The notes under the pieces are model-generated. The model was not told the DNA's origin and made no database searches. It saw nothing but the letters and a program-made list of their open reading frames with translations. From assembly GCF_024752355.1 (NCBI RefSeq), contig NZ_JANTHZ010000003.1:62001-126000 (forward strand): a stretch of DNA of 64,000 bases, written 5' to 3'. The DNA comes from Ancylobacter mangrovi (GTDB taxonomy: Bacteria > Pseudomonadota > Alphaproteobacteria > Rhizobiales > Xanthobacteraceae). Position 1 is the first letter of the stretch; the number at the start of each line of letters is the position of its first letter. Positions 9,712-27,882 of the stretch are shown piece after piece. The position numbers were made by a program, and so were the translations under genes.

Positions 9712-9726
9712 GAACAAAACATGAAC
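9712..9726 (+). promoter_or_regulatory. LexA (SOS) box upstream of imuA
   Basis: GAAC (9712-9715), seven bases, then GAAC (9723-9726): an exact match to the alphaproteobacterial LexA operator GAAC-N7-GAAC. It ends 5 bp before the likely imuA start, the position expected for repression of the SOS mutasome operon, known to be LexA-controlled in Caulobacter. Sequence match is direct; regulation is from family knowledge. Confidence 0.88.
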
Positions 9727-9730
9727 TAAT

Positions 9731-10654
9731 GTGAGCGCGACGATGGGCCCTGCCCGAGACGTTTCCGCGCTGAGGCAGCTGCTCGCCGGGCTTGAGGCGG
9801 AGCGCCTGCCCGGCGAGGCTTCCTCCTTCACCCTCGGCGCCGCCGGAACCGGCGAGATCGCGCTCGGGCGCGGGACGCTGCACGAGGTGCAGGCGGAGCG
9901 GGGCGCGGACCAGCCGGCGGCGGCCGGCTTCGCCCTGGCGCTGGCCTTGCGGGCCGGGCAGGCGGCGCACCTGCCCCCTATCCCCGCGTCCCCAGCACCT
10001 CTCCCGCTCGCGGGTCCCGGAAATGCCCCTCCCGTGCCGCTTCGGCCGGGCGCCCGTCCGGTGCTCTGGGTGCGGCAGGACATGGCCGAGGCCGAGCTCG
10101 GGCGGCTCGATGCCGCCGGCCTCGCCGGGCTCGGGGTCGATCCCGCCGGCCTCGTGCTGGTGCGGGCGCCGGACGCAGCGGCGGCGCTGCGCGCGGGCGA
10201 GGACGCGCTGCGCTGTTCCGCGCTCGGCGCCGTGCTGATCGAGATCTGGGGCGCGCCGAAGGTGCTCGACCTCACCGCCACCCGCCGCCTCTGCCTGCGC
10301 GCGGCGGCGGCCGGCGTCACCGGCCTGCTGCTGCGCGGGGCGGCGCGGAGCGTTCCCACCGCCGTGGCGACGCGCTGGCGGGTGTCGCCCGTTCCCTCGC
10401 TGCCGCTGGAGGGCCACGCCCCCGGCGCCCCGGCCTTCGAGGTGCGCCTGCTGCGCCATCGCGGCGGGCCCGAGGGACGGCGGGTGGAAGGGGGCACGTG
10501 GAAACTGGAGTGGGACCGTGAGACATGTTCCTTCCGCGACCTCCCCGCGCTACCTCGCGCTGTGGTTCCCGTTCCTGCCGGCGGACCGGCTGGAGCGGAT
10601 CCGGCGCCGGCGGGGCGGGAGCGCGCCGTCGCGCCGTTCCGCCGCGCGGGCTGA
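9731..10654 (+). CDS. imuA: ImuA, SOS mutagenesis accessory protein
   Basis: First gene of the imuA-imuB-dnaE2 cassette for damage-induced translesion synthesis. About 307 residues; ImuA has a RecA/SulA-like fold and is required for DnaE2/ImuB-dependent mutagenesis, though its exact role is unsettled. Recognisable are the opening RQLLAGLEAERLPGEASSF, the FALALALRAG segment, and the block GADALRCSALGAVLIEIWG in the form AGEDALRCSALGAVLIEIWG. The GTG at 9731 or ATG at 9743 may be the start; neither has a clear ribosome site, and the LexA box abuts them. Its 3' end overlaps the start of imuB by 137 bp, indicating tight coupling. Confidence 0.88.
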   Translation: MSATMGPARDVSALRQLLAGLEAERLPGEASSFTLGAAGTGEIALGRGTLHEVQAERGADQPAAAGFALALALRAGQAAHLPPIPASPAPLPLAGPGNAPPVPLRPGARPVLWVRQDMAEAELGRLDAAGLAGLGVDPAGLVLVRAPDAAAALRAGEDALRCSALGAVLIEIWGAPKVLDLTATRRLCLRAAAAGVTGLLLRGAARSVPTAVATRWRVSPVPSLPLEGHAPGAPAFEVRLLRHRGGPEGRRVEGGTWKLEWDRETCSFRDLPALPRAVVPVPAGGPAGADPAPAGRERAVAPFRRAG

Positions 10655-12131
10655 CGGCCTGCCCGCGCCGGCGCCGCTGGTCTTTGTCGAGACGGTGAAG
10701 AACGCGCTGCGCCTCGCCGCGGTGGACCGGCAGGCGCGCCGGTGCGGGCTCGCGCCCGGCCTGACACTGGCGGATGCGCGCGCGCGCATTCCCGACCTCG
10801 CCGTGATCGAGCACGACCCGGTGGCGGACGCGGCCTTTCTGGAGGCGATCGCCGACGATTGCGACCGCTGGACGCCGCTGGTCGCGCTCGACGGCGCCGA
10901 CGGGCTGGTGCTCGACATCACCGGCTGCGCGCATCTGTTCGGCGGCGAAGCGATGATGCGCGCGCGCCTTCTCGACCATCTGGAGCGGCGCGGGCTCGGC
11001 GCCACGGCGGTCATTGCCGGCACGCCGGAGGCGGCGCGGGCGCTGGCGCGGGCGAGCCGGGGCGGCGTGGTGCCGCCGGGCGGGGAGGCGCGGGCGGTGG
11101 CGCCGCTTCCCGTCGCCCTGCTCGGCATCGACGAGACGATCGCGAGCGGGCTATCCCGGGCCGGGCTGAAGACCATGGGCGACCTCGCCGAGCGGCCGGG
11201 CACGCCGCTCGCCGCGCGCTTCGGCGTGGAACTGCTGGTGCGCCTGCGCCGTACGCTCGGCCACGAGGACGTGCGCATCGTGCCGCGCCGGCCGCTGCCG
11301 GCCTGCATCGCCGAGCGCCGCTTCGCCGAGCCGATCGGCCGCGCGGAGGACATAGAGGGCGCGCTGGCCGGGCTGGTCGGGGACCTCGCCCTGATGCTGG
11401 AGGCGCGCGGGGAGGGCGGACGGGCGTTCGAGGCCTCGTTCTTCCGGGCCGACGGCGCGGTGCGGCGGCTGAAGGTGGAGACCGCGCGGCCCTCGCGCGA
11501 CGCGCCCGCGCTGATGCGGCTCTACCGCGAGCGGATCGCGGCGCTGGCGGACCCGATCGATCCCGGCTTCGGCTTCGATCTGGTGCGGCTCGCCGTGCTG
11601 CGCGCCGAGCCGCTCACCCCCGCGCAGGTGAGCCTCGACGGGCGCGCGGTCGCGGAGGAGGAGGTCGCGGAGCTGACCGACCGGCTCGCCGTGCGGTTGG
11701 GGCGCGAGCGGGTGCTGCGCTTTTCGATGCGCGACACCCACGACCCGGAGCGGGTCAGCGTGCAGGTGCCCGCGGGCGAGCCGGTGCCGCCCATGGCCCG
11801 TCCCGAATTCCTGCTGCCGCGCCCGCTCACCCTGTTCGACCCGCCCCAGCCGGTCGAGGCGCTGGCCGAGGTGCCCGACGGGCCGCCGCTGCGCTTCCGC
11901 TGGCGGCGCGTGGTGCACGAGGTCACCCGCGCCGAGGGGCCCGAACGGATCGCCCCGGAATGGTGGCGCGTGCCTGGCGGCGCGCCTGGAGCCCCGCATG
12001 CGCGCGAGCTCACGCGCGACTATTTCCGCGTCGAGAACCGCGAGGGGCGGCGCTTCTGGCTGTTCCGCGCCGGCCTTTACGATCGCGAGCCGGCCGCGCC
12101 GCGCTGGTTCCTGCACGGCCTGTTCGCGTGA
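10518..12131 (+). CDS. imuB: ImuB, Y-family polymerase-like mutasome scaffold
   Basis: A 537-residue Y-family polymerase homologue that acts as a hub joining DnaE2, ImuA and the beta clamp instead of polymerising. The Y-family palm is recognisable, but the catalytic carboxylates are gone: the first motif reads LALWFPFLPADR where active enzymes have a D-x-D/FFA pattern, and the region equivalent to SxDE reads LDGADGLVLDITG. This matches the known catalytic inactivity of ImuB. The GTG at 10518 is the listed start; the overlap with imuA is long, so a downstream start cannot be excluded. The stop lies 7 bp before dnaE2. Confidence 0.93.
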   Translation: MRHVPSATSPRYLALWFPFLPADRLERIRRRRGGSAPSRRSAARADGLPAPAPLVFVETVKNALRLAAVDRQARRCGLAPGLTLADARARIPDLAVIEHDPVADAAFLEAIADDCDRWTPLVALDGADGLVLDITGCAHLFGGEAMMRARLLDHLERRGLGATAVIAGTPEAARALARASRGGVVPPGGEARAVAPLPVALLGIDETIASGLSRAGLKTMGDLAERPGTPLAARFGVELLVRLRRTLGHEDVRIVPRRPLPACIAERRFAEPIGRAEDIEGALAGLVGDLALMLEARGEGGRAFEASFFRADGAVRRLKVETARPSRDAPALMRLYRERIAALADPIDPGFGFDLVRLAVLRAEPLTPAQVSLDGRAVAEEEVAELTDRLAVRLGRERVLRFSMRDTHDPERVSVQVPAGEPVPPMARPEFLLPRPLTLFDPPQPVEALAEVPDGPPLRFRWRRVVHEVTRAEGPERIAPEWWRVPGGAPGAPHARELTRDYFRVENREGRRFWLFRAGLYDREPAAPRWFLHGLFA

Positions 12132-12138
12132 GGCGGCG

Positions 12139-15100
12139 ATGAGCACCCCCTTCTTCGCCGAGATGGTCGCGGCCTCGAACTTCTCCTTCCTGCGCGGGGC
12201 CTCGCCGGCGGAGGCGCTGGTGACGCAGGCGCTCGCCCTTGGCCATGCCGGCATCGGCATCGCCGACCGCAACACGGTGGCCGGCGTGGTGCGCGCCTAT
12301 GCGGCGGTGGAGCGGGCGAAGGAGGTCTATGCCGAGGCGTGGCAGGCCCGGACGGCGGTTCTCGCGCGGTGCGAGCCGACCGCGGAGGCCGGTGCCGGCG
12401 AGCCGGCCGACGGCGCTGCGTCCGGGCCGGCGCAGGCGCCCGGCGAGAGGGAGCAGGATCGAGTACCCGAAGGCTTGGCGCCGGAAGGCCCGGCATCAGG
12501 TGAACCGGCCTCGCAGAGCTCGATATCGAGGAGCTCGGTATCGGCCATTTCTTCCTCGAAGAGTCCGGCGTCGAAAGTCCCGCCTCCGCAACACCGGGCG
12601 CCCGGCGAGGGTGCCGGCGCCGCCATCCCCAGTCCGGCCACCCCACCGGAAGAGGATGCGCTGGAGCGGGTGGTGCGGGCGCTGGCCGGGGAGGCGGCCG
12701 AGCGCGGCGCGGCGCCGCAACTCACCTTCGCTCTCGTCGTCGGCGCGCGGCTGGTCTTTGCCGACGGTACGCCGGACATCGTCGCCCATGCGCAGGACCG
12801 CGCCGGCTGGGGACGGCTCACCCGCCTGCTTACGGCCGGCAATCTGCGCGCCGGCATCAAGGGCGAGTGTCATCTCAGGCTCGACGACCTCCTCGCCGAT
12901 GCGCGCGGCCTCTCGCTGGTCCTGATGCCGCCGCGCCACCTGCCGGCAGAGGCGCGCGTCGGGCTTCGCGGGACGCTGGCAAGGCTGCACGAGGCGGCGC
13001 CCGGCTCGCTCTGGCTCGGCGCCACCATGGCGCGGCGCGGCGACGACCGTCGGCATCTCGCGGCGCTGAAGGCGCTAGCAGTGCAGGCCGGCGTGCCGCT
13101 GATCGCCACCAATGACGCGCTCTACCACCACCCCGACCAGCGCGATCTGCAGGACGTGCTCACCTGCATCCGCGAGGGCGTGACCCTCGAGGCGGCGGGG
13201 CGGCTGCTCGAGGCCAATGCCGAGCGCCACCTGAAGCCGCCGGCCGAGATGGCCCGCCTGTTCCGCGAGGCGCCCGAGGCGGTGGAGGAGACGCGCGACT
13301 TCCTCGCCCGCATCGATTTCTCGCTCGGCGAGCTGCACTACGAATATCCCGAGGAGCCGGTGCCGCCGGGGCGCACGCCGCAGGACTGGCTCGAGGAGGT
13401 GACCTGGCGCGGCGCCGCCATGCGCTACCCGGAGGGCGTGCCGCCCAAGGTGGAGGCGCAGCTGCACACCGAGCTGGCCCTGATCCGGGAACTGGACTAC
13501 GCGCCCTATTTCCTCACCATCCGCGACATCGTCGACTTCGCCCAGCGCAACCGCATCCTGTGCCAGGGGCGGGGCTCGGCGGCCAATTCGGCCGTGTGCT
13601 ACGTGCTCGGCATCACGGCGGTGGACCCCGCCGCCAGCAACCTGCTGTTCTCCCGCTTCATCGCCCGCGAGCGCCGCGAACCGCCGGACATCGACGTCGA
13701 TTTCGAGCATGAGCGGCGCGAGGAGGTGATCCAGCACATCTATGAGCGCTACGGGCGCCACCGGGCCGGCATCGCCGCGACCGTGATCTCCTATCGCCCG
13801 CGCAGCGCGATCCGCGACGTCGGCAAGGCGCTCGGCCTCACCGAGGACGTGACCGCCCGCCTCGCCGGCACGGTGTGGGGAAGCTGGGGCGACGAGATCA
13901 AGGAGAGCCAGGCGCGCGAGGCGGGGCTCGACCCGCGCAATCCGGTGATCGCGCGGGCGATCGGCTTCGCCGTCCGGCTGCTCGGCTTCCCGCGCCACCT
14001 CTCCCAGCATGTGGGCGGCTTCGTGCTGACGCGCGGGCGGCTCGACGAGACGGTGCCGATCGGGCCCGCGGCGATGAAGGACCGCACCTTCATCGAATGG
14101 GACAAGGACGACATCGACACGCTCGGCCTGATGAAGGTCGACGTGCTCGCGCTCGGCATGCTCACCTGCATCCGCAAGGCGCTCGACCTGATGCGCGATC
14201 ACGAGGGCATCGAATACGGCCTCGCCGAGGTGCCGAGGGAGCAGGGCGACGTCTACGCCATGCTGCAGAAGGGCGATTCCATCGGCGTGTTCCAGGTGGA
14301 AAGCCGGGCGCAGATCAACATGCTGCCGCGCCTCAAGCCGAAGAACCTCTACGACCTCGTGATCCAGGTCGCGATCGTCCGCCCCGGCCCGATCCAGGGC
14401 AACATGGTGCACCCCTATCTGCGCCGGCGCGACGATCTGGAGAAGGTCGACTACCCCTCGCCCGCGCCGCCGAACGACCCGAACGAGCTGCGCGGCGTAC
14501 TGGAGCGTACGCTGGGCGTGCCGCTGTTCCAGGAACAGGCGATGCAACTCGCCATGGTGGCGGCCGAGTTCTCCGACGTCGAGGCCAACCAGCTGCGCCG
14601 GGCCATGGCGACCTTCCGCCATCTCGGCACCATCGGCCAGTTCCGCAGCATGCTGATCGACCGCATGAGTGCGCGCGGCTACGATCCCGCCTTCGCTGCG
14701 CGCTGCTTCGAGCAGATCAAGGGGTTCGGCGAATACGGCTTTCCCGAAAGCCACGCCGCCTCCTTCGCCAAGCTGGTCTACATCTCCGCCTACATCAAAT
14801 GCCGGCACCCGGCGGCCTTCGCCTGCGCGCTGCTCAACTCCCAGCCCATGGGCTTCTACGCCCCGGCGCAGATCGTGCGCGACGCGCGCGAGCACGGGGT
14901 GGAGGTGCGCGCCGCCGACGTGAACCACAGCCTCCACGACAACACGCTGGAGCGCCGGGCAGACGGGAGGCTCGCGCTGCGGCTCGGCTTCCGGCAGGTG
15001 GACGGCGTCGGGGAGGAGGCGGCCCTGCGCCTCGTGCGGGCGCGGGCGGCGGCGGGCGGCGGCTTCGGCGACGTGGAGACGCTGGCGCGGCGCTCCGGCC

Positions 15101-15864
15101 TGCCGGTCGCCATCCTGACGCGGCTCGCCGAGGCGGACGCCTTCCGCTCCATGGGGCTCGACCGGCGGGCGGCCGCCTGGGCGGTGCGTCGGCTGCCGGA
15201 CGACGCGCCGCTGCCGCTCTTCGCCGCCGCCGATGCGCGCGAGCTCGGCGCGGATGCGGAGGCGCGCCTGCCCGTCATGCCGCTGCCCGAGCACATCGCG
15301 GTCGACTACCAGACCACGCGGCTCTCGCTGAAGGGCCACCCGATGGGCATGCTGCGGCCGGTCTTCGCCGCCGAGAGGGTGCTGTCGAGCGCCGGCGTCG
15401 CAAGCGCCCGCGACGGGGCCTATGTGCGGGTGGCGGGGATCGTGCTGGTGCGCCAGCGGCCGGGCAAGGGCAACGCCATCTTCATGACGCTGGAGGACGA
15501 GGAAGGCATCGTCAACGTGCTGCTGTGGACCCGCCAGTTCGAACGCTTCCGGGCCGAGGTGATGGGTGCGCGTCTCGCCGTGGTGGAAGGGCGGGTGCAG
15601 AAGAGCAAGCAGGGCGTCGTCCACATCATGGGCGAGCGGGTCTTCGACCGTTCCGCCGAGCTCGGCCGGCTGTTCGAGGCGCCCGCACACGAGGCGGCCG
15701 GAGGGGAGGGGCCGGGGAAGGCCGTCGTTCCCGCCCCGCAGGTCGATCCGGGACGGGACGAGCGGGCGCGGGGCCGGGCCGGCGCGCGGCTGAGCGCGGG
15801 CCAGGCCGGCCATGGCCACCCGCGCCAGGTGCGGCTGCTGCCGAAATCGCGCGATTTCCATTGA
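12139..15864 (+). CDS. dnaE2: DnaE2, error-prone DNA polymerase III alpha subunit
   Basis: C-family polymerase for SOS mutagenic lesion bypass. N-terminal PHP domain (SNFSFLRGASPAEAL at the start), palm with the catalytic aspartates in PPDIDVDFEHERREE, then fingers, helix-hairpin-helix and OB-fold region (GIVLVRQRPGKGNAIFMTLED) near the C-terminus. The ATG at 12139 follows imuB by 7 bp and gives 1241 residues, longer than the usual 1050-1100. The excess is a Pro/Ser/Ala/Glu-rich stretch at about residues 66-193, splitting the PHP domain between AYAAVERAK and LTFALVVGARL. The frame stays open throughout, so the gene appears intact. The tail is basic and Gly/Arg-rich. Confidence 0.95.
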   Translation: MSTPFFAEMVAASNFSFLRGASPAEALVTQALALGHAGIGIADRNTVAGVVRAYAAVERAKEVYAEAWQARTAVLARCEPTAEAGAGEPADGAASGPAQAPGEREQDRVPEGLAPEGPASGEPASQSSISRSSVSAISSSKSPASKVPPPQHRAPGEGAGAAIPSPATPPEEDALERVVRALAGEAAERGAAPQLTFALVVGARLVFADGTPDIVAHAQDRAGWGRLTRLLTAGNLRAGIKGECHLRLDDLLADARGLSLVLMPPRHLPAEARVGLRGTLARLHEAAPGSLWLGATMARRGDDRRHLAALKALAVQAGVPLIATNDALYHHPDQRDLQDVLTCIREGVTLEAAGRLLEANAERHLKPPAEMARLFREAPEAVEETRDFLARIDFSLGELHYEYPEEPVPPGRTPQDWLEEVTWRGAAMRYPEGVPPKVEAQLHTELALIRELDYAPYFLTIRDIVDFAQRNRILCQGRGSAANSAVCYVLGITAVDPAASNLLFSRFIARERREPPDIDVDFEHERREEVIQHIYERYGRHRAGIAATVISYRPRSAIRDVGKALGLTEDVTARLAGTVWGSWGDEIKESQAREAGLDPRNPVIARAIGFAVRLLGFPRHLSQHVGGFVLTRGRLDETVPIGPAAMKDRTFIEWDKDDIDTLGLMKVDVLALGMLTCIRKALDLMRDHEGIEYGLAEVPREQGDVYAMLQKGDSIGVFQVESRAQINMLPRLKPKNLYDLVIQVAIVRPGPIQGNMVHPYLRRRDDLEKVDYPSPAPPNDPNELRGVLERTLGVPLFQEQAMQLAMVAAEFSDVEANQLRRAMATFRHLGTIGQFRSMLIDRMSARGYDPAFAARCFEQIKGFGEYGFPESHAASFAKLVYISAYIKCRHPAAFACALLNSQPMGFYAPAQIVRDAREHGVEVRAADVNHSLHDNTLERRADGRLALRLGFRQVDGVGEEAALRLVRARAAAGGGFGDVETLARRSGLPVAILTRLAEADAFRSMGLDRRAAAWAVRRLPDDAPLPLFAAADARELGADAEARLPVMPLPEHIAVDYQTTRLSLKGHPMGMLRPVFAAERVLSSAGVASARDGAYVRVAGIVLVRQRPGKGNAIFMTLEDEEGIVNVLLWTRQFERFRAEVMGARLAVVEGRVQKSKQGVVHIMGERVFDRSAELGRLFEAPAHEAAGGEGPGKAVVPAPQVDPGRDERARGRAGARLSAGQAGHGHPRQVRLLPKSRDFH
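12334..12717 (+). other. In-frame low-complexity insertion in DnaE2 PHP domain
   Basis: About 128 codons encoding disordered sequence rich in Pro, Ala, Glu and Ser (for example SSISRSSVSAISSSKSPASK) between two parts of the PHP domain that are adjacent in typical DnaE2. Base composition dips around 12510-12590 compared with its surroundings, and two related 14-mers occur there (gagctcgatatcga, gagctcggtatcgg). Boundaries are judged by eye from memory of the family. Confidence 0.7.
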
Positions 15865-26068: not shown

Positions 26069-26083
26069 GTTCTTGATATGTTC
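26069..26083 (+). promoter_or_regulatory. LexA (SOS) box upstream of the PA0069-type radical SAM gene
   Basis: GTTC (26069-26072), seven bases ttgatat, GTTC (26080-26083): an exact alphaproteobacterial LexA motif GTTC-N7-GTTC. It ends 24 bp before the ATG at 26108, in an AT-richer patch. It is only the second such match I found in gene upstream regions here, the other being at imuA. Match is seen; SOS control is inferred. Confidence 0.72.
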
Positions 26084-26107
26084 TCATGGCTGGACTAAGA
26101 ATCCGGC

Positions 26108-27364
26108 ATGGAACGCCGCACTGAACTTCTCCCCCGACAAAAGTCGCCGCCGGCGGCGGCGCCGAAGCATCTCGGCCGGCTGGCCGAGGAGCGGCGGGCG
26201 CTGCGGGAGAAGGAGGAGCGCGCGCAGGCGCGGGACACCTCGACGCTGTCGGAAATGGATGGCGGGCCGGAGCCGGCCGGGCCGTCGGTCGAGGCCGGGC
26301 GCCGGCGCGGCCGGGGCGCGCTCTCCAACGCGGCGGGCCGGTTCGAGCCGCAGGCTCGCGAGGCGTTCGACGACGGCTGGCAGAGCCTCGACGACCTGCC
26401 GGTCTTCCGCACCGACGTGACGGTGGAGCGGGCCCGCACCATCATCAACCGCAACGATTCGCCCGATGTCGGCTTCGACCGCTCGATCAATCCCTATCGC
26501 GGCTGCGAGCATGGCTGCGTGTACTGCTTCGCCCGCCCGACCCACGCCTATCAGGGCCTCTCGGCCGGGCTCGACTTCGAGACGCGGCTGTTCGCCAAGG
26601 CCGATGCGCCCGAATTGCTGGCGAAGGAGCTGGCGAAGCCGGGCTACGAGCCGCGCACCATCGCGCTCGGCATCAATACCGACGCCTACCAGCCGATCGA
26701 GCGCGAATGGCGGCTGACGCGCCGGATCCTGGAGGTGCTGAGCGATTTCGGCCATCCGGTCGGCATCGTCACCAAGTCCGCGCTGGTGCTGCGCGACCTC
26801 GACATCCTCGCGCCGATGGCCGAGCGGGGGCTGGTGAAGGTCGCGCTGTCGGTCACCTCGCTCGACCACAAGCTGGCGCGGGTGATGGAGCCGCGCGCGG
26901 CGACGCCGATGCGCCGCCTCGACGCGCTGCGCCGCCTGAGCGAGGCGGGCGTGCCCACCGCCGTGCTGGTGGCGCCGGTCGTGCCGGCGGTGACGGACAT
27001 GGAGATGGAGCGCATCCTCGACGCGGCCGCCGCCGCCGGCGCGTCGGAGGCGGGCTATGTGATGCTGCGCGTGCCGCTTGAGATCAAGGACCTGTTCAAG
27101 GAGTGGCTGCTGGCCCATTTCCCGGATCGCTACCGCCACGTCCTGGCGCAGCTGCGGGAACTGCACGGGGGCAAGGAATATGATTCCACCTTCGGCCATC
27201 GCATGACCGGCAGCGGCCCCTATGCCTGGACCATGGCGCGGCGCTTCGAGATCGCGGTGGAGCGGCTCGGCCTGAACCGCCGCCACACGCGCCTGACGAC
27301 GCGGGCCTTCAACCGCCCGCCACGCAAGGGTGAGCAATTGTCGCTGTTCGGGGAGGATGCATGA
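26108..27364 (+). CDS. PA0069-family radical SAM protein
   Basis: A 418-residue radical S-adenosylmethionine enzyme of the PA0069/SplB-like group; no reaction is established for this family. A disordered charged head (about residues 1-95) precedes the core with the iron-sulfur motif CEHGCVYC (CxxxCxxC, about 132-139), in the context YRGCEHGCVYCFARPTH. The segment TKSALVLRDLDIL is typical for the spore-photoproduct-lyase-like group. The C-terminus ends LSLFGEDA. The LexA box upstream suggests induction by DNA damage. The stop overlaps the next gene's start (ATGA), so the pair is coupled. Confidence 0.9.
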   Translation: MERRTELLPRQKSPPAAAPKHLGRLAEERRALREKEERAQARDTSTLSEMDGGPEPAGPSVEAGRRRGRGALSNAAGRFEPQAREAFDDGWQSLDDLPVFRTDVTVERARTIINRNDSPDVGFDRSINPYRGCEHGCVYCFARPTHAYQGLSAGLDFETRLFAKADAPELLAKELAKPGYEPRTIALGINTDAYQPIEREWRLTRRILEVLSDFGHPVGIVTKSALVLRDLDILAPMAERGLVKVALSVTSLDHKLARVMEPRAATPMRRLDALRRLSEAGVPTAVLVAPVVPAVTDMEMERILDAAAAAGASEAGYVMLRVPLEIKDLFKEWLLAHFPDRYRHVLAQLRELHGGKEYDSTFGHRMTGSGPYAWTMARRFEIAVERLGLNRRHTRLTTRAFNRPPRKGEQLSLFGEDA

Positions 27365-27882
27365 TCGCGGTGGAGGAATGCGAAAACGGGCCGGAGGACG
27401 CGCCGGCCCGGGAATTGACGCGCGAGGCCGTGCGGCGGGGAGGGCGGGAGGTTCCGCCGCTGCGCCTGTCGCTGGTGACGCTCGGCGTGGCGGACCTCGT
27501 GCGCGCGGCCGCCTTCTACGAGAAGCTCGGCCTGGCGCGGAAGGTGCGCGAGGCCGGGGGCGTGGTGTTCCTCGAGGCCGGGCCGGTGGTGCTGGCGCTC
27601 TATCCGCGCCATGAGCTCGCGACCGATGCCGGCGTCGTCGACGGCCGGCACGGCCAGTTCGGCGGCGTGGCGCTGGCCTGCAACCGGGCGAGCCGGGCCG
27701 ATGTCGACGCCACGCTCATCCGCGCGGTGGCGGCGGGCGGCCGGGCGCTGCGGCCGGCGCAGGCGACCTTCTGGGGCGGCTATTCCGGCTATGTGGCAGA
27801 TCCCGACGGCTACCCCTGGGAGATCGCGCACAATCCCGGATTCGGGCTCGACGAGGAGGGCCGGCTGATCCTGCCGGCGTGA
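27361..27882 (+). CDS. VOC-family protein coupled to the radical SAM gene
   Basis: A 173-residue glyoxalase-fold protein. The core begins at RLSLVTLGVADLVRAAAFY (about residue 37) and closes with GGYSGYVADPDGYPWEIAHNP, characteristic of the PhnB-unlike VOC group often annotated as glyoxalase. The first 35 residues are charged and probably extended; a later start within them is possible. Its ATG overlaps the radical SAM stop by 4 bp. As second gene of a possibly LexA-controlled pair it may take part in the same damage response. Substrate unknown. Confidence 0.85.
   Translation: MIAVEECENGPEDAPARELTREAVRRGGREVPPLRLSLVTLGVADLVRAAAFYEKLGLARKVREAGGVVFLEAGPVVLALYPRHELATDAGVVDGRHGQFGGVALACNRASRADVDATLIRAVAAGGRALRPAQATFWGGYSGYVADPDGYPWEIAHNPGFGLDEEGRLILPA

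Follow-up and report, generated by a model that had tools for sequence, protein, structure and literature searches.

A radical S-adenosylmethionine (SAM) gene of COG1533, named splB and described on homology as a photolyase gene, was predicted in 2012 to be controlled by LexA in Alpha- and Betaproteobacteria (PMC3323433). In other phyla, SplB or a radical SAM protein is listed in the SOS regulons of Bacteroidetes, Balneolaeota and Gram-positive bacteria (PMC8565304, PMC7739468). The radical SAM gene vnz_31145 of Streptomyces venezuelae shows a fold change of 19.97 in mitomycin C RNA sequencing and has a LexA peak in chromatin immunoprecipitation; the authors compare it with repair enzymes for UV thymine cross-links (PMC9380542). 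The SOS regulation of this gene type is already known in outline. The gene considered here encodes a PA0069-family radical SAM protein and lies behind a LexA box in a 64-kb stretch of the Ancylobacter mangrovi genome (the window, meaning the whole stretch of DNA that was analysed). It very probably corresponds to the published splB, because each of two Agrobacterium and two Ensifer genomes, other than the strains of that paper, contains one match to the family model NF033668 above its cut-off (with two further, sub-threshold matches in one Ensifer genome). The reading favoured here, with moderate confidence, is that of a LexA-repressed radical SAM enzyme of DNA repair that would be tethered to the replication clamp, with both the clamp binding and the DNA substrate being predicted.

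Spore photoproduct lyase, which is under sporulation control, shares with the PA0069 protein its overall fold (residues 59 to 395) and the radical SAM motif, whereas the PA0069 gene is placed under SOS control. The two further differ in that they align with only 14-18% identity, and the PA0069 protein has no fourth cysteine and gives no match to a lyase family model at E 0.001. By profile, its closest sister family is Rv2578c (NF038135) of Actinomycetota, a separate equivalog whose clamp-like motif follows a long variable linker. On the replication side, ImuB, Pol IV and Pol V are SOS-controlled and, unlike the PA0069 radical SAM enzyme, are polymerases or polymerase relatives. They share with it a short QLxLF-type motif, which is often C-terminal (PMC11139829, PMC10421592). 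The splB account likewise concerns a radical SAM gene preceded by LexA boxes in Alpha- and Betaproteobacteria. Its accessible text was not seen to mention a clamp motif, the lack of a fourth cysteine, RNase HII and VOC neighbours or a leaderless layout, nor were these features of tail, cysteine, neighbourhood and promoter found in the other papers searched. Outside subscription papers, no radical SAM enzyme was found linked to the replication clamp or its binding motif, and the terms 'radical SAM' and 'SplB' were both absent from the accessible text of a clamp review (PMC11139829). The same searches brought up no reaction measured for a PA0069-family protein and nothing on PA0069 together with radical SAM or on Rv2578c together with LexA; of three papers containing the name PA0069, one (PMC7485682) uses it in its accessible text as a strain label.

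The original prediction, made from the sequence alone, had placed an exact GTTC-N7-GTTC box 24 bp 5' of a PA0069-family radical SAM gene and had related PA0069 proteins to spore-photoproduct-lyase-like enzymes. This is confirmed: the box, GTTCTTGATATGTTC, is separated by 24 nt from the ATG of the open reading frame (ORF), and family score and closest fold agree as well. Its proposal of DNA-damage control is strongly supported by the conservation of two LexA box types, but that of a new SOS effector falls to the 2012 prediction for splB and the induction in Streptomyces.

Orthologues were read at 168 loci, 128 of them alphaproteobacterial (126 distinct proteins) and 40 from other classes of the phylum, and boxes were counted within 650 nt 5' of the conserved core. 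The exact box, whose conservation the original prediction had proposed to check, stands 5' of the orthologue at 116 of the 128 alphaproteobacterial loci. In the same loci, the control words were found 0 (GTTCN6GTTC), 3 (N8), 2 (N5), 1 (N9) and 4 (CTTGN7CTTG) times, and a chance box is rejected because of this difference. The class-wide sample alone gives 55 of 67 loci, and the exact box recurs at 75 of a further 80 named loci, nearly all alphaproteobacterial, that scored best among at least 596 candidates; the closest named relative in this set is Ancylobacter rudongensis, at 83% identity. Outside the class, GTTCN7GTTC was found at none of the 40 loci, and CTGTN8ACAG, which we take to be the LexA box of the other classes of the phylum, occurs at 26 of them. 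These 40 loci were fetched from 54 genomes with a match, 49 of which were above the cut-off, and their beta- and gammaproteobacterial labels are inferred; a named Aeromonas locus carries the CTGTN8ACAG box. The presence of two LexA specificities at the same orthologue excludes chance, and control of the radical SAM gene by DNA damage, as predicted from two unrelated LexA boxes conserved across the phylum, is strongly supported. Weighing against it are the 12 of 128 alphaproteobacterial loci in which the exact box is missing on the gene strand, and the 14 of 40 other loci in which no CTGT box was found. Among the 12 exceptions are one reversed box and seven AT-rich boxes with one mismatch, but the latter prove little because one-mismatch matches of a control word are found at 38 of the 128 loci.

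The radical SAM protein ends in GEQLSLFGEDA, and the QLSLF of this tail fits the published rule for beta-clamp ligands. The consensus is given as QL(S/D)LF, generalised to Q-aliphatic-x-[L/M]-[F/L] together with a hexamer form (PMC11139829), and the C-terminal QLSLF of PolC binds DnaN (PMC12309361). In an alignment of 66 sequences, Q410 is present in all 66 and L413 in 63, while the eight preceding residues are variable. The motif was also scored in the last 20 residues of 242 distinct orthologues (202 alphaproteobacterial, 40 other). The strict pentamer is found in 181 of the 202 and 18 of the 40, the hexamer form in four further alphaproteobacterial proteins (QIALPF, QLTLGL, QLSLGF, QFTLAL) and one further other protein (QMGLDF), the relaxed form QxxL[FL] in one and 19 further proteins, respectively, and none of the three in 16 and 2. 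As a control, 436 other ORFs of the same loci gave 5 strict, 2 hexamer and 14 relaxed matches. The endings QLTLL, QESLF, QEPLF and QLRLL occur among four actinobacterial relatives, from Streptomyces, Nonomuraea, Tsukamurella and Arthrobacter; the two of them that were tested belong to the Rv2578c family and have the motif far beyond the last position of their family model, and a GAAC-N4-GTTC box is present for the Streptomyces and Nonomuraea relatives. Altogether, these data provide strong sequence evidence for the QLSLF tail as a putative clamp ligand.

Several observations count against this assignment. The strict pentamer is missing in 21 of the 202 alphaproteobacterial and 22 of the 40 other orthologues. 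Of the 16 alphaproteobacterial tails that fit no form, most still have a Q with hydrophobic residues after it (QLSFL, QLSLI), yet the proteins of loci L232 and L237 contain nothing resembling the motif. The 19 relaxed motifs outside the class have Gly, Gln, Arg or others at position 2 (QGSLF, QQDLF), and Gly at this position weakens the binding of published peptides (PMC11139829). The NF033668 model extends to the end of the motif, so that homology within the family could by itself explain some of this conservation. More distantly, it is missing in relatives from Paenibacillus, Priestia, Haloarcula and the plasmid-borne 'mobile pair' of Parabacteroides and Eubacterium; Gemmatirosa (QLSLGI), Acetoanaerobium (QLSFF) and Monoglobus (EQLGF) do not fit the strict rule; and the GAAC-N4-GTTC box was not found in the stretch scanned for the Tsukamurella and Arthrobacter relatives. 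In Haloarcula, two radical SAM proteins of one plasmid both lack the motif; archaea have a different sliding clamp. As a side observation, three class-level orthologues in which the clamp motif is missing or strongly altered (L232, L237 and L234) also lack the exact LexA box, and two of these genomes are small (1.8 and 1.4 Mb).

The match to NF033668 covers model positions 1-348 of 348 above the curated cut-off, and that to the radical SAM domain PF04055 has an E value of 1.2e-19. By structure comparison, the closest fold by a clear margin is spore photoproduct lyase (PDB 4fhc, 4fhg and others); the match list also contains the RNA-modifying radical SAM enzymes TYW1 and RlmN. A sequence search of solved structures with an orthologue profile gave nothing convincing, the best match (E 3e-4) being a maturase of ribosomally synthesised and post-translationally modified peptides, and no NCBIfam match to the spore photoproduct lyase model was found at E 0.001. 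C133, C137 and C140 are the sole cysteines of the radical SAM protein, and all of them are cluster ligands; the alignment has a single other cysteine-rich column, 384, where 26 of 66 sequences carry Cys and the window protein carries Val. In spore photoproduct lyase, Cys140 (4fhc) is the hydrogen donor, and this residue is mutated in some of the matched PDB entries. No conserved cysteine of this kind is found in the radical SAM protein, and lyase-type chemistry with a cysteine hydrogen donor is unlikely because the cluster ligands are its only cysteines. Membership of the classical spore photoproduct lyases was rejected for want of both a family-model match and a fourth cysteine, and the shared fold does not imply a shared substrate, which is a caution for the repair reading as well. 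A defence function was rejected on the grounds that neither the radical SAM nor the VOC protein matched the anti-phage defence models of PADLOC at E 0.01.

In the mechanism that we propose, LexA bound to a box containing the -35 element would repress the promoter, probably that of a leaderless mRNA. RecA-driven cleavage of LexA relieves repression after damage, and the radical SAM gene would thereby be derepressed. The QLSLF tail would dock in the beta clamp at its ligand pocket, placing the enzyme on DNA where replication has stalled or translesion replication has taken place, for repair or reprocessing of the damage; there, SAM cleavage would lead to hydrogen abstraction from a damaged nucleotide. 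The reaction should differ from that of the lyase on spore photoproduct, as the fourth cysteine is missing. The VOC protein, which is probably co-transcribed, is most likely an accessory binding protein restricted to the family and some relatives; this is the weakest part of the proposal. The clamp motif offers a physical hypothesis, recruitment to forks, and sets the PA0069 enzymes apart from classical spore photoproduct lyase. If this is right, the SOS response would have direct radical repair as one of its general arms, next to translesion synthesis and excision repair. More tentatively, these proteins could belong to a widespread and hitherto unrecognised class of radical SAM DNA-repair enzymes, SOS-induced in Pseudomonadota and Actinomycetota, recruited to the clamp by a C-terminal QLxLF-type tail, repairing lesions by radical chemistry other than that of spore photoproduct lyase and coupled to the removal of ribonucleotides by RNase HII and, in the family of the window, to a VOC partner; such a generalisation is possible but rather doubtful at present.

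Table 1. Features of the radical SAM locus and of the imuA-imuB-dnaE2 region, in window positions
Feature	Position	Strand	Basis or remark
LexA box GTTCTTGATATGTTC, direct repeat GTTC-N7-GTTC	26069..26083	+	exact motif match; kept 5' of orthologues in 116/128 alphaproteobacterial loci
Predicted -35 element TTGATA within the LexA box	26073..26078	+	17 nt before conserved TA; alignment of 83 promoters
Predicted -10 element TAAGAA	26096..26101	+	positions 13-18 after the box; alignment of 83 promoters
PA0069-family radical SAM protein, 418 aa	26108..27364	+	NF033668 568 bits (cut-off 360); PF04055
CEHGCVYC, [4Fe-4S]/SAM motif CxxxCxxC, residues 133-140	26504..26527	+	invariant in 66 aligned orthologues
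QLSLF, residues 410-414 of 418, predicted beta-sliding-clamp-binding motif	27335..27349	+	conservation and published motif definition
VOC/glyoxalase-superfamily protein, 173-aa ORF	27361..27882	+	PF00903
Second exact LexA box GAACAAAACATGAAC	9712-9726	+	ends 4 nt 5' of the ImuA-like ORF
imuA-imuB-dnaE2 cassette	9731-15864		ImuA-like ORF (sub-threshold), ImuB ORF, error-prone DnaE2
Y-family-like ImuB ORF	10518-12131		within the imuA-imuB-dnaE2 cassette

The layout of the promoter was derived from 184 distinct alphaproteobacterial stretches between box and start, 83 of which have their start codon 23-25 nt after the box. Aligned, these 83 share a TTG within the box and, from 13 nt after it, a TA...T, with the 17-nt spacing of -35 and -10 elements; T and A reach frequencies of 0.69 and 0.73 at positions 13-14, and T 0.58 at position 18. 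At the window locus, position 18 is A instead of T, which makes the -10 element a weak match to TATAAT. The layout fits a sigma-70 promoter with its -35 element in the LexA box and a transcript starting at or near the ATG. Given the spacing of TTG and TA...T and the presence of a Shine-Dalgarno-like word in only 25 of the 83 promoters, a leaderless mRNA from a LexA-occluded promoter is predicted.

The whole Ancylobacter genome (4.9 Mb, 22 contigs) contains 83 exact GTTCN7GTTC matches, compared with 29 for the reversed word. The A/T content of the spacer was read for 75 of the 83 boxes, the other eight having four A/T or fewer as judged by eye. Six of seven spacer positions are A/T, the maximum seen, in nine of the 75, GTTCTTGATATGTTC included. 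These nine comprise sites at lexA, ssb/uvrA, recN, the imuA cassette of the window and the radical SAM gene, in addition to three by small ORFs and one by another ORF. Here recN was called from an AAA/SMC domain and the first residues of its product, and imuA from a sub-threshold ImuA match (33.5 bits, cut-off 150) and its position before an error-prone polymerase. Boxes with fewer A/T in the spacer lie near comM, ruvC, a gyrB/parE-type gene and dnaE. GTTCTTGATATGTTC differs from the ssb/uvrA box by a single base. From the boxes at lexA, ssb/uvrA, recN, imuA and others it follows that this genome uses the alphaproteobacterial LexA box.

Some of these sites are of interest in themselves. The second exact box of the window, GAACAAAACATGAAC, precedes an imuA-imuB-dnaE2 cassette (Table 1), whose DnaE2 matches NF004225 with 1404 bits. 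The recN-like gene (L007:1501-1594; C4:30409) has its AT-rich exact box 78 nt 5' of the ATG, and LexA regulation of recN is stated to be lacking in the Alphaproteobacteria examined in PMC3323433. Three AT-rich exact boxes (L016:1501, L046:3467 and L065:2531, on C6, C15 and C19) lie beside or inside small ORFs of 82-126 aa, for which no Pfam match was found and which are candidate SOS genes.

Downstream of the radical SAM gene, the VOC protein matches PF00903 with 48.7 bits (cut-off 20.6). The stop codon of the radical SAM gene overlaps the ATG of the VOC ORF as ATGA at 27361, the coupling that had been described originally, with the caveat that the first ~30 VOC residues show no conservation in relatives, so that the true start may lie inside the ORF; at three loci of the same genus (L072, L073 and L075), the VOC ORF likewise begins at the overlap. 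A VOC relative (E 1e-10) is present in 67 of 119 family genomes and in 59 of these 67 lies directly 3' on the same strand, whereas none was found in the flanks of 29 class-level loci. VOC presence switches ~15 times across a 168-locus tree, counted with near-duplicates kept and no shuffled control, and the VOC gene is therefore dispensable for the core function, a point against the proposed mechanism. The radical SAM/VOC pair is real and, judged from gene order, conserved at family level, but it is not the core of the system. The closest relative of the VOC protein among solved structures is 3bqx, a 'glyoxalase-related enzyme' (E 1.7e-32) for which the listing names no function; FosA-type and mitomycin-binding proteins resemble it weakly (E 2e-5 to 4e-4), which does not assign a function either.

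The sequence further 3' was surveyed at 168 alphaproteobacterial loci, over about 0.7-2.5 kb each. A same-strand ORF starts within 250 nt at 148 of them, and the largest cluster, of 70, is RNase HII (a member scores 229.8 bits in NCBIfam, cut-off 167). The RNase HII gene, rnhB, is in the flank at 68 of the 80 named, 28 of 29 order/family and 14 of 29 class loci, but at only 2 of the 30 nearest, which are the best-scoring 30 of the family-genome matches; in the flank of the Ancylobacter locus, the VOC gene is present and no rnhB was found. In Bradyrhizobium and others, the VOC gene stands between the radical SAM gene and rnhB. Through such arrangements, the LexA box may also put RNase HII under SOS control. 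An order radical SAM - (VOC) - rnhB - ccrM recurs, for instance at L302 and L313. Altogether, the repair role suggested in the original prediction draws support from the lyase fold, the predicted clamp-binding tail and the RNase HII neighbour, and that interpretation stands in part; of its effector pair, the pairing itself holds at family level but does not extend to the class-level loci.

As regards the reaction, two other explanations have been considered. The protein could be a plain photolyase-like enzyme of the spore-photoproduct-lyase type, reversing UV pyrimidine lesions by standard lyase chemistry. We hold this to be decidedly unlikely, since the three cluster cysteines leave none for the role of Cys140, the lyase model is not matched at E 0.001 and identity over the fold is low; moreover, spore photoproduct is a lesion of spores and these bacteria are not known to form endospores. 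What speaks for such an enzyme is that the lyase clearly leads the structural matches, that this gene type bears the name splB with predicted SOS control (PMC3323433) and that the S. venezuelae authors liken their gene to enzymes acting on UV thymine cross-links (PMC9380542). Alternatively, the substrate at forks could be ribonucleotides, RNA or RNA-DNA hybrids instead of a classical DNA lesion, with the enzyme working alongside RNase HII, as the frequent rnhB flanks at named, order/family and class loci and the presence of TYW1 and RlmN in the fold list would suggest. Yet rnhB is scarce in the flanks of the nearest loci and absent from that of the Ancylobacter locus, and, because ccrM follows it in many loci, the gene order may reflect an old chromosomal neighbourhood. 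SOS control and a clamp motif would also be unnecessary for RNA modification, and a ribonucleotide substrate thus seems unlikely.

The proposed tether and the proposed repressor have alternatives of their own. The QLxLF motif may be a packing element of the folded protein rather than a clamp ligand, in which case the SOS-induced enzyme would diffuse freely. Its position in the last columns of the family model would suit such a role, as would the short helix that the structure model places at residues 410-414, but confidence drops at this point (predicted local distance difference test score of 58 for the tail). Conservation is limited to Gln, Leu and Phe/Leu, the ~8 residues before them being variable; the motif alternates between two classes, pentamer and hexamer, that are established for clamp ligands; and two actinobacterial relatives have it well outside the region that their family model covers. 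All of this makes packing an improbable explanation. As for the LexA box, a chance match or a site of another regulator could be invoked from the two exact matches observed in the 64-kb window, where 0.96, or about one, would be expected. Set against the conservation measured with controls and the different LexA box found in the other classes, this idea retains next to no probability. The clamp-tethered, LexA-repressed repair enzyme is hence the account that we prefer.

Almost every genome in the family of the window has the radical SAM gene, with a match in 115 of 119 when fragments are counted. In a class sample of 142 genomes, it is found above the cut-off in 68, of which 67 have LexA; LexA occurs without it in 44 and neither is found in 30. 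ImuB is present in 63 of the 142, 51 of which also have the radical SAM gene, a co-occurrence uncorrected for kinship or genome size and given little weight. A phage collection yielded 10 distant partial matches, none covering 80%. Among plasmid records, 75 have a match and 25 cover 80% of the query; the 13 listed of those 25 are all replicons from Alphaproteobacteria, 0.88-4.6 Mb in size. An origin from phages or other mobile elements was rejected, as the phage matches are distant and partial and the listed well-covered plasmids are large alphaproteobacterial replicons. The mobile pair mentioned above consists of two distant plasmid-borne radical SAM relatives, A and B (Parabacteroides and Eubacterium; L323, L333), without a clamp-like tail, and in L323 a metallo-beta-lactamase-fold hydrolase gene adjoins the pair.

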